A model generated the notes under the pieces. The model had not been told where the DNA came from, searched no databases, and was given only the letters and a program-made list of their open reading frames with translations. Below are positions 1 to 2,745 of a stretch of DNA of 64,000 nt, piece by piece. Position 1 is the stretch's first letter. Each line of letters opens with the position of its first letter. The stretch comes from Alicyclobacillus sp. (lineage in GTDB: Bacteria > Bacillota > Bacilli > Alicyclobacillales > Alicyclobacillaceae): assembly GCA_023511295.1 (NCBI GenBank), contig JAIMBT010000007.1, forward strand, positions 1 through 64,000, given 5' to 3'. The translations under genes were made by a program, and so were the position numbers.

Positions 1-540
1 ACCCGAGCCGCGACCAACAAGGGACTCGCGTTCCGCTATCCCACGGACCAACCCCCGATTTCGAGCCGAACAGAGGGCTGGGCACACCAACAGCGGAACG
101 CGAGTCCCTTAACGCCACCGGGATCGGGCCTCCGGTGCAAAATAGAGGAACGGCAGTCCGCTACCGGGGCCGGCTAACCGGCGACGCCCGGCGAGACACT
201 GCGCCGGGCCCTCGACAGGCCCACCCCGACGCCAACAAGGGAACGCAGTTCCGCTGTCCGCCTCCGCAGCACCCGAGCCGCGACCAACAAGGGACTCGCG
301 TTCCGCAATCCCACGGACCAACCCCCGATTTCGAGCCGAACCGAGGGGTGGGCACGCCAACAGCGGAACGCGAGTCCCTTAACGCCGCCGAGATCGGGCC
401 TCCGGTGCAAAACAGAGGAACGGCAGTCCGCTATCGGGGCCGACAAAAGCCGACAAGAGCCATCAACACCGCCAAACCAGCAAGGACCATCCCGCAGACC
501 CACCCCAGCTCCAACAAGGGAACGCGGTGTTCGTCCAGCA
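1..540. repeat. Cluster of short dyad repeats, duplicated 270-base unit
   Basis: At least eight related elements lie here. Direct copies sit near 15-43, 138-167, 233-259, 285-313, 409-438 and 511-535; inverted copies sit at 92-109 and 362-379. The recurring core is CAACAAGGGAACGCAGTTCC or a variant of it, followed by GCT. The arm at 21-37 is the exact reverse complement of 92-108 (17 of 17). Bases 1-171 recur as 271-441 with few changes, so a block of about 270 bases has been duplicated. No convincing gene is present. The block lies downstream of trmD, where rplS usually follows. Function unknown. Confidence 0.85.
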
Positions 541-574
541 CGAATCGACCCGCCGACCCATACGATGATGGTGT

Positions 575-627
575 GCCCTCTGAGGCGGCGATACGGGATA
601 CAGGGCACAGCGGTCGCCTCAGAGGGC
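575..627. repeat. 13-bp perfect inverted repeat downstream of trmD
   Basis: GCCCTCTGAGGCG at 575-587 is the exact reverse complement of 615-627, with a 27-base loop. It lies about 60 bases past the trmD stop on the minus strand. There is no U-tract on either strand, so it is not a standard intrinsic terminator. It may stabilise the 3' end of the message or be a protein site. The remainder of 541-686 shows nothing else. Confidence 0.6.
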
Positions 628-686
628 GATCCAATGTCTCTTCCACACCACCGCCGCGCGAGCCTCGAGTGCCGCATGGCGTGTCG

Positions 687-1481
687 TCAGGTTTCACTCT
701 TCTTGCGCCAGGCGGGTGCTTCCAGGACGTCGATTCCGTCCAGATGTCCGGCTTCAAATTCCGAAAGCCACCGCCGGTCATCGGCCGAGAGCGAGGCGTG
801 CTGCAGAAGGTCCGGCCTCCGCACCCACGTTCGATAGAGGGCGTGCCGACGCCTCCACCGCGCCACTTCTGCGTGATTTCCGGACAACAGTACGGGCGGC
901 ACATCGAGACCGCGAAACGATGCGGGCCGCGTGAACTGCGGGTACTCGAGCAGTCCATCGGTAAACGAGTCGTCTTCGGGCGAGGCTGTGTTGCCAAGTA
1001 CCCCCGGCACCAAACGCGTCACCGCGTCCATCACGGCCATCGCCGGAATCTCGCCGCCGGTCAATACAAAGTCCCCCAGGGAGACTTCCTTCAGATGGAG
1101 CCCCCGGAGGATACGTTCGTCGAAGCCCTCGTAATGTCCGCATACGAGGACAATCCGCCGGAGCTTCGACCACGCCTGTGCCAGTTCTTGTGTGAATGGC
1201 TCACCTTGCGGTGTCAGCGCAACGCGGACCTCCAAATCCGGTCCGAGATCTGGCGGCAGCGAGGACATGGCATCGAACAGCGGTTGAGGCTTCAGGACGA
1301 GCCCGGGGCCCCCGCCGAACGGTGCGTCGTCGACGGTCCGATGTTTGTCCAGTGCAAAATCCCGAAAGTTGACGAACCGAAATTGTACCAATCCCGCATC
1401 TTGCGCCCGCTTCAAAATACTTTCGCCGAGGACACCCTCGAACATCGACTCGAACAGGGTCACGACGACAATCTCCAACAT
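687..1481 (-). CDS. trmD: tRNA (guanine-N1)-methyltransferase TrmD
   Basis: This enzyme methylates G37 of tRNAs next to the anticodon using S-adenosylmethionine, which prevents +1 frameshifting. The 264-residue product carries the SPOUT trefoil-knot signatures: DDAPFGGGPG for substrate binding, and a later GDFVLTGGEIPAM segment with the downstream MDAVTR acidic residue. The start ATG follows GGAGG by 11 bases and lies immediately before the rimM stop; an in-frame GTG 36 bases upstream lacks a site. It is the last gene of the rnc-to-trmD cluster. rplS, its usual follower, is absent from the remaining 686 bases. Family assignment is firm. Confidence 0.97.
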   Translation of the reverse strand: MLEIVVVTLFESMFEGVLGESILKRAQDAGLVQFRFVNFRDFALDKHRTVDDAPFGGGPGLVLKPQPLFDAMSSLPPDLGPDLEVRVALTPQGEPFTQELAQAWSKLRRIVLVCGHYEGFDERILRGLHLKEVSLGDFVLTGGEIPAMAVMDAVTRLVPGVLGNTASPEDDSFTDGLLEYPQFTRPASFRGLDVPPVLLSGNHAEVARWRRRHALYRTWVRRPDLLQHASLSADDRRWLSEFEAGHLDGIDVLEAPAWRKKSET

Positions 1482-1482
1482 G

Positions 1483-2070
1483 TCAGGTTGAACCTCCGCC
1501 AGCGTCGGAATCTCCACCAGACCCCGGCTTGTTCGCCTCGAGTTCGTCCTCCTTCAGCAGACCGGGCAGCAGGTGAACCGTCATCACACCCGTCTCGAGA
1601 GACACGTCGAGAACGCAGTCGGCGATGGCGGGGATGAGAACCTCGTCTGCTTGCAGCGGTCCCCGCACCACGTACACATCGTTCGCGCCGGGCTGCAACA
1701 CGTCCGTGAGAACGCCGACTTCGCGTCCGTCATCCGCCACCACCCGCAGTCCAACCAACTGGTGGATGTAGTATGTATACGCTGGCAGTGGCATCAGGTC
1801 CGCTTCGGCCACACACAGTTCGACGCCGCGCCATTTCTCCACCATGTCAATCCGATCATAGCCGGAAAACGCGACCAACCAGAATTGTTTGTGCCGCCGA
1901 GCGGTCTGAACCGTCAACCAGCCATCCTCGCCGACGGCCGGACGGGTTCGCAGTCGCTGGCCGCGACGAAAGCGGCGTTCTGGGAAATCGGTCTTCGAAA
2001 TCACCCGGACTTCGCCCCGCAGACCATGGGTGCCGACGATAACCCCCACGGTGAACAGTTCCTCTGTCAA
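1483..2070 (-). CDS. rimM: Ribosome maturation factor RimM
   Basis: RimM binds S19 and assists late maturation of the 30S head. The 195-residue product has the N-terminal RimM beta-barrel (VGVIVGTHGLRGEVRV near residue 8) and a C-terminal PRC-barrel domain containing VGLRVVADDGREVG. It starts with TTG, with GAGGTGA correctly placed upstream. The reading frame ends within two bases of the trmD start, so the two are probably translationally coupled. The C-terminus carries a Gly/Ser/Asp-rich tail of about 15 residues beyond the usual family length. Order ylqD-rimM-trmD is as in Bacillus. Confidence 0.95.
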   Translation of the reverse strand: MTEELFTVGVIVGTHGLRGEVRVISKTDFPERRFRRGQRLRTRPAVGEDGWLTVQTARRHKQFWLVAFSGYDRIDMVEKWRGVELCVAEADLMPLPAYTYYIHQLVGLRVVADDGREVGVLTDVLQPGANDVYVVRGPLQADEVLIPAIADCVLDVSLETGVMTVHLLPGLLKEDELEANKPGSGGDSDAGGGST

Positions 2071-2286
2071 TCCGACTCACCTCGCTTCAAGCGTCCTCAA
2101 ACGACGCCCCTGGTCAGGAAAGGTATGAGACCCATCGTTCCATGCTGCGTCCATCGGTCCATATAAAGAAGTCCGGCCTGCATCGCGGCCGAACCCTAGA
2201 CCTGATTCATGTCGTCGCCCGCGTACGGTCATCGCACGGCAGAGCGGTCCCTGGTCCGCAGCGCACTACAACTGTGGCCGTGCGGC

Positions 2287-2745
2287 TCACTCCAAGCGGA
2301 GCGTACCTCCCGCCTCTGCTCCGAGCGAAGCAATGGTCTGTCCGCGCTGGCGGATTTCCTGAACCACACCGTCCTTGACGATGATCTCGGAGCCCATCAG
2401 GATTTTGCTCCAATCGTCGCCGACGTTGACTTCCACCGCCGTCTCGACGGTCATGTTCTGCAACTCTGTGCCGAGTTCCAATTGCTGAATCTGCTGAATC
2501 TGTTGAATCAGCTGTTCGCGCTGCTGCAGGCGTTTGGCGCGTTCCTGTTCCAACTGCTGGCGGATTTGCTGGGCCACCTGCCCGCCCTGGGCCATCGCCT
2601 GCTCCATCGCTTGCTTCCCCTGTTGCTCCAACTGCTCGAGCTCAATCATCAGCTGTTCGACCTGACGGCGTTGCTCCTGGATTATCTGTTGCTTCGTCTG
2701 TTCGGTCAACACCGTTTTGACGACCACCGGTTGACGTATCTGCAC
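2287..2745 (-). CDS. ylqD: YlqD family protein
   Basis: A 152-residue protein of unknown biochemical role, conserved at this position between khpA and rimM in Bacilli. The N-terminus (QIRQPVVVKTVLTEQTK) and the C-terminal block (VEVNVGDDWSKIL, IIVKDGVVQEIR) match YlqD. The middle, about residues 20-95, is an unusually Gln/Glu-rich coiled coil. The GTG start at 2745 has GGGGG eight bases upstream and aligns with the family start; another GTG nine bases earlier overlaps that site. The 216 bases between this gene and rimM hold no recognisable gene or terminator. Confidence 0.88.
   Translation of the reverse strand: MQIRQPVVVKTVLTEQTKQQIIQEQRRQVEQLMIELEQLEQQGKQAMEQAMAQGGQVAQQIRQQLEQERAKRLQQREQLIQQIQQIQQLELGTELQNMTVETAVEVNVGDDWSKILMGSEIIVKDGVVQEIRQRGQTIASLGAEAGGTLRLE

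Follow-up and report, generated by a model that had tools for sequence, protein, structure and literature searches.

The left end of the window, as the whole stretch of 64,000 nucleotides analysed here is called, carries an array of short palindromes. These are predicted to be binding sites of a protein that unites a nuclease with a winged helix (nuclease-wHTH) and to have spread as small non-autonomous passengers, a reading that we consider probable. The architecture of the arrays, their helical phase, the lack of covariation between the palindrome arms, the proximity of the gene, the match between winged helix and palindrome and the conservation of the arms were all established by computation.

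The array at the window start and its genomic family

The window constitutes the first 64 kb of contig C36 in a genome of 42 contigs and 3.43 Mb, placed in the same family as Alicyclobacillus ferrooxydans TC-34, and since it begins at the start of that contig the array is cut by the assembly. The preliminary description of this DNA had recorded eight related elements in 540 bases. These are eight 21-bp palindromes within window 18–535 (Table 1), seven of them clear (0–3 mismatches to the consensus) and one, at 515, decayed (5 mismatches). The direct repeat recorded at 1–171 and 271–441 has the reported spacing of 270 bp but its true extent is 1–177 and 271–447, with 94% identity, while the 17-bp inverted arms at 21–37 and 92–108 are exact as described but reach 19 bp (19–37 and 92–110). 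An assembly duplicate was rejected because the blocks are not identical (6% difference) and because the 270-bp unit recurs in diverged form, with 78–96% identity, at or near five other contig ends, as the 270-bp quartet arrays of contigs C11, C23, C26, C34 and C2 (loci L009–L013). A motif unique to this locus and a second block copied by the assembly had been named as the findings that would speak against the preliminary description, and neither was observed. On contig C2 the array in the 270-bp form lies upstream of the 5′ end of a 16S rRNA gene, which would explain an assembly break there, and rrn-linked arrays probably break the assembly of this genome.

Table 1 Palindromes and neighbouring features of the window, with palindromes adjoining nuclease-wHTH genes in other loci
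Feature	Window position	Strand	Spacing	Basis
Palindrome P2, quartet cut by contig start (CAAGGGACTCGCGTTCCGCTA)	18..38			sequence
Palindrome P3 (CAGCGGAACGCGAGTCCCTTA), inverted copy of P2	91..111		73 bp on	sequence
Palindrome P4 (TAGAGGAACGGCAGTCCGCTA)	143..163		52 bp on	sequence
Palindrome P1 of complete quartet (CAAGGGAACGCAGTTCCGCTG)	236..256		93 bp on	sequence
Palindrome P2 of complete quartet	288..308		52 bp on	sequence
Palindrome P3 of complete quartet (inverted copy of P2)	361..381		73 bp on	sequence
Palindrome P4 of complete quartet	413..433		52 bp on	sequence
Decayed palindrome, 5 mismatches; possibly P1 of next, lost quartet	515..535			sequence
Complete quartet	236..433		52-73-52 bp (5-7-5 helical turns)	same architecture in other genera
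Two tandem 270-bp units; repeated parts 1–177 and 271–447	1..447			sequence
Open reading frame whose end adjoins the array (presumably trmD)	687..1517	-		ORF
Gene-adjacent palindrome TAAGCGGCC..GGCCGCTTA			51-62-51
Gene-adjacent palindrome TAAGGCGG..CCGGCTTA			52, both gene sides, inverted
Gene-adjacent palindrome TAGCGCAC..GTGCGCTA			63
Gene-adjacent palindrome TAGGTGTCA..TGACACCTA			41
Gene-adjacent palindrome TAACGGCAC..GTGCCGTTA			52-42-41

The open reading frame next to the array is one that we take to be trmD, as in the preliminary description. The array had been placed where rplS normally follows trmD; rplS of this genome lies inside another contig (C1:111550–111876), so that trmD is not directly followed by rplS here. 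Within 1.5 kb of rplS there is no palindrome array and only one lone palindrome match with three mismatches. A perfect 13-bp inverted repeat with a 27-nt loop (window 575–627) lies in the gap from the array to the trmD end and is perhaps the trmD terminator.

The genome-wide search for the core motif, proposed in the preliminary description, returned 93 exact sites of ARSGGAACNNNGTTCCSYT in the window genome and none of the reversed-pattern control. Both orientations were matched, the core with up to three mismatches giving 37 forward and 25 reverse matches (control 0), and a much looser pattern with one mismatch gave 183 and 192 matches against 13 and 11 in the control. Among the matches listed, palindrome sites occupy at least 26 places, spread over 14 contigs. 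At most of those read there is an array in which spacings of 52 and 73 bp alternate, forming a 125-bp unit, and the spacers between palindromes vary from place to place. Chance palindromes were rejected on the reversed controls, which were 0 in most searches; the control matches seen were one in genome G015 (in the TAAGCGGCC search), single ones in 5 of 104 Gordonibacillus-family genomes and the 13 and 11 of the loose own-genome pattern.

Quartet architecture and arm conservation in other genomes

The exact site is present in 6 of 101 genomes, the window genome included, with 93 copies in the latter, 94 in A. ferrooxydans and 10, 3, 1 and 1 in the others. A slightly wider pattern detected 301 sites in A. 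ferrooxydans, 166 in Gordonibacillus kamchatkensis and 2–58 in five Paenibacillus/Cohnella genomes, with controls of 0. At least one palindrome site occurs in 29 of the 104 genomes of the Gordonibacillus family, a database grouping that takes in several Paenibacillus species. The distribution is thus patchy, the exact GGAAC site being absent from 95 of 101 genomes and the wider pattern from 75 of the 104.

A two-palindrome proximity scan of named genomes retrieved, among the matches listed, loci of Paenibacillus, Cohnella and Gordonibacillus, most of which hold quartets with spacings of 50–52, then 60–63 or 71–73, then 50–52 bp. The resulting 51-62/73-51 bp arrangement corresponds to 5-6/7-5 helical turns. 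Quartets were found in 18 of the 20 Gordonibacillus loci read (L124 and L159 being one place), and the quartet listing comprises 36 rows, in which L082 (two rows) is a 25-bp tandem repeat, L159 duplicates the place of L124 and L076 is weak. A. ferrooxydans, C. luojiensis and Cohnella CFH 77786 display runs at 51–52 bp instead of quartets. The Gordonibacillus spacers are mostly unlike between copies, although several retain faint homology, and one outer spacer of most Gordonibacillus quartets (L069, L095, L100, L153–L163) carries a doubled ATTTCCC, ~11 bp apart. Judged by faint homology and doubled ATTTCCC together, the Gordonibacillus copies appear to descend from a single element that dispersed long ago. 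The doubled ATTTCCC, which might mark a bend or serve as a second protein site, is also found in P. hemerocallicola L141.

Since the 51-bp unit of A. ferrooxydans equals 17 codons, its arrays (L042, L074, L145) give long open frames that encode a 17-residue peptide over and over, and such frames may lead to false protein annotations. Clusters of GGAAC palindromes that differ in flanks and spacing were met in Viridilinea (L060, L061, L109, L136), Saprospiraceae (L041, L126), Curtobacterium (L053, L057, L140; for example 49 bp apart with mirrored TGTCCGGAAC flanks) and Streptomyces (L045, L102; for example triplets at 27–33 bp). These and other such GGAAC clusters, among the matches listed, were left out of the family.

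Pairing between the two arms is at or near the shuffled level, and in some cases below it, in the own-genome, Gordonibacillus and Paenibacillus/Cohnella sets. The Watson-Crick fraction is 0.37 against 0.53 shuffled for −8/+8 in Gordonibacillus (75 of 75 palindromes unique) and 0.23 against 0.41 for −7/+7 in the window genome (98 of 157 unique). A. ferrooxydans is an exception, with pairs above the shuffled level at −7/+7 (0.68 vs 0.45), −2/+2 (0.93 vs 0.81) and −1/+1 (0.93 vs 0.86; 40 of 117 unique). The three centre bases of the palindrome are free in most sets. Selection for hairpins was rejected because arm covariation is missing in three of the four sets, A. ferrooxydans partly excepted, and arms of this kind fit the half-sites of a dimeric protein. 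The orthologous quartet of P. mesophilus and P. hemerocallicola, which lies in an operon that we take to be pyruvate-dehydrogenase-like (pdh-like), has identical bases at 70 of 72 arm positions, compared with 69 of 102 in the spacers and 7 of 12 in the centres. The arms are kept while the spacers diverged, which argues that selection acts on the half-sites.

The intergenic position, also put forward for checking in the preliminary description, is biased. Arrays lie behind genes, between 34 tandem, 13 convergent and 1 divergent gene pairs (n = 48). Among 100 gaps of 150 bp or more that hold no array, by comparison, 27 separate divergent genes (Fisher 1e-4). Gene calls for these counts were made with an in-house codon-bias caller; L159 and L164 were left out, 17 arrays were flanked by a called gene on one side only, and 3 shared bases with a call. 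Among the genes beside arrays are presumably trmD, lysS-like and pdh-like ones. Rfam covariance models gave no match at the gathering score in eight array loci, and the only match in window 1–2500 was to mir-4436, at 30.7 bits against a gathering score of 74, which was taken as chance. An Rfam RNA family was thus rejected for the eight loci and for this part of the window.

A nuclease–winged-helix protein as candidate partner

Reading frames of at least 80 residues around the arrays were compared among loci, array-derived frames being set aside. A nuclease-wHTH protein of ~220 residues recurs near arrays in five loci of four genomes. Among the best 25 gene groups, a transporter-permease-like group is also near arrays in five loci and other groups in 2–4, and the nuclease-wHTH group was chosen for follow-up over the equally frequent transporter-permease-like one. 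The gene is located 55 bp from the array in C. lubricantis, between two quartets, 1.8 kb from the array in C. luojiensis, with a lone palindrome ~45 bp behind the gene, and 4.4 kb from the array in P. mesophilus. The window genome encodes two copies, the only ones found, 19 bp and ~2.2 kb from family arrays; the earlier remark that no gene or transposase is apparent holds inside 1–540. All 6 genomes with GGAAC sites (own included) contain the protein, compared with 19 of 95 without such sites (hypergeometric ~1.4e-4, worked out by hand), and another array was found in only some of those 19. The protein is also encoded by 83 of the 104 Gordonibacillus-family genomes, often as many diverged copies. 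One distant match was found among plasmids and none among phages.

The protein was modelled with a pLDDT of 90.9, or 92.8 for the nuclease domain alone. I-Bth0305I is a homing endonuclease of the EDxHD class, and Vsr is an endonuclease. The nearest solved fold of the nuclease domain is NGO0050 (Z 10.3), and it superposes on the I-Bth0305I catalytic domain (3r3p) with Z 10.2 over 93 aligned residues at 2.4 Å and on Vsr (1cw0) with Z 8.3 over 101 aligned residues at 2.7 Å. The C-terminal domain is a MarR/ArsR-like winged helix (Z 11.0, 73 aligned). Foldseek returned nothing below E 1e-3 for the whole model (best listed 1.0e-3) and no match at E ≤1e-3 for the nuclease domain. Among 57 sequences D69, E82 and R104 are invariant and D84 and H89 nearly so, suggesting from sequence that the predicted nuclease residues D69, E82, D84 and H89 are kept. 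The own-genome copy L024, 219 residues long, scores 22.3 bits against DUF559 (cut-off 20.6) and 31.1 bits against MTES_1575 (cut-off 38.2), and 36 and 39 of the 57 members match these two families at E 0.01. For the own copy NCBIfam returned no match, and across all 57 it returned only three stray ones, each to a single member. In the best 25 of 29 Pfam families matched by the 57 cognate proteins Y1_Tnp is absent, the MTES_1575/DUF559 nuclease and the wHTH being seen.

If each paralogue reads its own palindrome, the genes should adjoin phased arrays of other palindromes, also in genomes without GGAAC. Phased arrays were detected beside the gene in 9 of 50 short loci (three of them GGAAC) against 0 of 50 shuffled, and in 13 of 40 12-kb loci (one GGAAC) against 0 of 40 shuffled, the two sets overlapping in that L195–L214 are the same genes as part of L215–L254; examples are given in Table 1. 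A more sensitive scan located arrays in 18 of 75 gene-touching segments compared with 1 of 215 distant ones, and 13 of the 18 are in genomes without an exact GGAAC site. Chains in helical phase occur in 31 of 142 near segments and those half a turn off in 3 of 142, the corresponding numbers for far segments being 8 and 2 of 298. When no period was assumed, the spacings revealed a best period of 10.5–10.7 bp (R 0.81, n = 29, 0 of 2000 null draws). These 29 spacings come from the unbiased scan, mostly from other palindrome families, and include L234 and L242, perhaps plain tandem repeats; the chains of L234, L242 and part of L252 may be of that kind. Gene-adjacent arrays are mostly 3′ of the gene (23 vs 8). 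Of 75 loci, 29 have an array at most 900 bp from the gene, and in three of them the gene has arrays on either side; no array was detected within this distance in the other 46. The arrays of L212 flank the gene on both sides and are inverted. Eight closely similar Paenibacillus-type orthologues (L170, L172–L178), each the sole match in its genome, have no array detected within 900 bp, and this clade is perhaps a domesticated copy.

The palindrome sequence follows the winged helix of its neighbour. With up to 2 mismatches allowed, G039 contains 302 copies of the palindrome adjacent to its gene (control 0). There are 16 copies in G020, the genome of protein L215, which clusters with the G039 protein L222 (support 100/96), compared with 0, 0, 0, 1 and 2 copies in five other genomes; one of these five, G015, holds no TAAGCGGCC site, though its protein L216 groups with L215 and L222. 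Palindrome similarity correlates with whole-protein identity over 32 labelled pairs of gene and palindrome (Mantel r 0.28, 8/5000) and over the 19 pairs without GGAAC (r 0.30, 9/5000). The nuclease domain shares the ancestry of the winged helix and therefore serves as a control for relatedness: the correlation is 0.446 for the winged helix (0/3000) and 0.156 for the nuclease domain (186/3000), with partial correlations of 0.43 for the winged helix given the nuclease and −0.10 for the nuclease given the winged helix. For these comparisons L239 was dropped (two families), the label of L252 was replaced by the family from the 12-kb scan, and L024, L019, L036 and L039, left unlabelled by the 900-bp scan, were given the GGAAC palindromes of their loci by hand.

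Proposed mechanism, rival explanations and known systems

We propose that the palindrome would be a pair of double-stranded DNA half-sites bound by a dimer of the cognate nuclease-wHTH protein, the winged helix reading the arms and leaving the three centre bases free. The spacings between neighbours, ~41, 52, 62, 73, 94, 104 and 114 bp, correspond to whole helical turns, and dimers would therefore lie on one face of the DNA and be able to pack into one complex, typically of four dimers on one quartet. Each paralogue would have its own palindrome sequence, often stored in an array just behind the gene, with dozens to hundreds of palindrome copies per genome behind other genes. We infer physical binding, catalysis and dissemination: the nuclease may nick or cut DNA within the complex, and repair may copy quartets into new intergenic places and expand them in tandem. 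The palindromes would then be small passengers unable to move on their own, the role proposed for REPs in relation to RAYT transposases, and the window array would be one passenger in an expanded form, a form also seen beside an rRNA gene. An active nuclease with hundreds of chromosomal sites would need some restraint. The preliminary description had offered three readings, of which protein-binding sites are now strongly supported and dispersal as small elements somewhat, while the results speak against transcribed hairpins.

The same binding partners might instead serve the host by organising the chromosome or transcript ends, as a boundary or supercoil anchor, with the nuclease incidental or used for repair and the copies made by ordinary duplication. 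Such a role would agree with arms that stay conserved after insertion, with arrays that avoid divergent promoters (1 of 48 vs 27 of 100 gaps ≥150 bp), and with a large array adjoining a 16S rRNA gene and others beside what are presumably trmD, lysS-like and pdh-like genes. It is nevertheless unlikely in view of the very patchy distribution, with 95 of 101 genomes lacking the exact GGAAC site and 75 of 104 in the Gordonibacillus family without sites, the differences in palindromes among genomes and the retention of the nuclease residues. The palindromes could also belong to another DNA-binding protein, the nuclease-wHTH gene being a mere neighbour or a passenger preferring such places. The 46 of 75 loci with a gene but without a detected array point in this direction, as do the other gene groups that recur near arrays, one of them in equally many loci. 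We hold this to be decidedly improbable, given the contrast between near and far segments (18 of 75 vs 1 of 215), a palindrome sequence that tracks the winged helix of the neighbour and not its nuclease domain, and the genome-wide family predicted in G039 by the gene-adjacent palindrome.

Transcribed hairpins acting as mRNA stabilisers, terminators or structured RNA are a very remote alternative. Each palindrome can fold, the arrays lie behind genes and A. ferrooxydans displays partial covariation, but covariation is missing elsewhere, as the −8/+8 and −7/+7 pairs given above illustrate, a spacing in 10.5-bp turns would not be needed by RNA and Rfam gave no match at the gathering score in the loci scanned. 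Scarcely credible, finally, is the reading that these are usual REPs mobilised by a Y1 tyrosine transposase (RAYT). The likeness is one of palindromic, extragenic, multi-copy sequences with a dedicated, co-varying gene alongside, as in the available excerpt of Nunvar 2010 (PMC2817692), and it is countered by the identity of the associated protein, a DUF559/Vsr-like nuclease with a wHTH, by the lack of a GTAG-type tag and by the lack of arm covariation in three of the four sets.

Compared with known systems, the proposed dispersal of palindromes by a nuclease-wHTH protein has its closest likeness in REP/BIME/REPIN and RAYT. The excerpts available of PMC2817692 and PMC3116915 describe short extragenic palindromes that occur behind genes in many copies genome-wide, a dedicated gene accompanied by palindromes of its own, several paralogues each with its own palindrome, and co-variation of enzyme and palindrome. 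The present family shares the many extragenic palindromes, and the other features probably have counterparts in it. In contrast, the enzyme here is a Vsr-like nuclease with a MarR-like wHTH and not a Y1/HUH transposase (57 cognate proteins), the palindromes have no GTAG/CGTC-type head but YAR/YTR-type ends on both sides (positions −12 to −7 and +7 to +12), and compensatory stem changes are missing in three of four sets. Moreover, the spacing is locked to the DNA turn with the quartet as a common unit, for which the excerpts of PMC2817692 and PMC3116915 offer no counterpart. With an unrelated enzyme and without tagged head and stem compensation, the system would thus work like REP/RAYT and is not a member of it. 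The N-terminal fold and the conserved acidic and His residues resemble I-Bth0305I (3r3p) and Vsr (1cw0), but here a wHTH is joined to the nuclease, and the protein is linked with phased palindrome arrays. Likewise, 36 and 39 of 57 members match Pfam DUF559 and REase_MTES_1575 at E 0.01, while those Pfam names give no function, wHTH or palindromes. R.DpnI also joins an N-terminal catalytic domain to a C-terminal winged helix, both of which read DNA, although its target is Dam-methylated GATC, according to the part of PMC4117772 available. The preliminary remark that no known repeat family is apparent agrees with the Rfam result in the loci scanned and with the open-licence PMC literature, in which no description of such a system was found. 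The excerpts of the RepRanger paper PMC12306157 and of PMC3733652 contain no Paenibacillus or Alicyclobacillus passage.

The chances seem to us evenly balanced that these palindromes and proteins constitute a new class of genome-scale DNA system in Bacilli. In it a self-spreading homing-nuclease/winged-helix protein with private, evolvable palindromes would seed helically phased multi-site complexes behind many genes, paralogues and genera running mutually blind parallel versions, as a convergent counterpart of REP/RAYT that arose from an unrelated enzyme and acts on double-stranded DNA. A family of intergenic repeats that had lacked an explanation now has a protein partner that can be tested, and a likely target emerges for a widespread family of orphan proteins (weak Pfam DUF559/MTES_1575). 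With some eighteen palindrome types, the pairings of winged helix and palindrome found in nature provide a data set for a protein-DNA recognition code, and the helical phase seen at dozens of loci offers a model of how several dimers assemble on one DNA face in bacteria. Should the nuclease spread its own sites, it would represent a second, independent origin of REP-like genome colonisation.

Among features comparable with MITEs, P2 and P3 are inverted in the window and the L212 arrays are inverted around the gene. The pdh-like slot was compared between genomes on one strand, with 11 of 30 loci unmeasured, and holds a quartet in two genomes, 34–74 bp between the flanking matches in 14 others, and 130–402 bp in three more slots, where no array was detected; the comparison resolved neither a target-site duplication nor a precise empty site. 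The patchy distribution and this slot speak for movement of the quartets. Of two of the unmeasured loci, G120 has a 62-51 chain in its slot and G117 none, and a clear array was seen in none of 11 further pdh slots. The 402-bp Gordonibacillus slot (L274 ~1930–2330) contains several TGTACA-containing inverted repeats, in which the scan resolved no phased array. The P. hemerocallicola quartet (L256 ~1955–2240) has two extra palindromes at 51-bp steps relative to the P. mesophilus orthologue, and this is tandem growth between two species.
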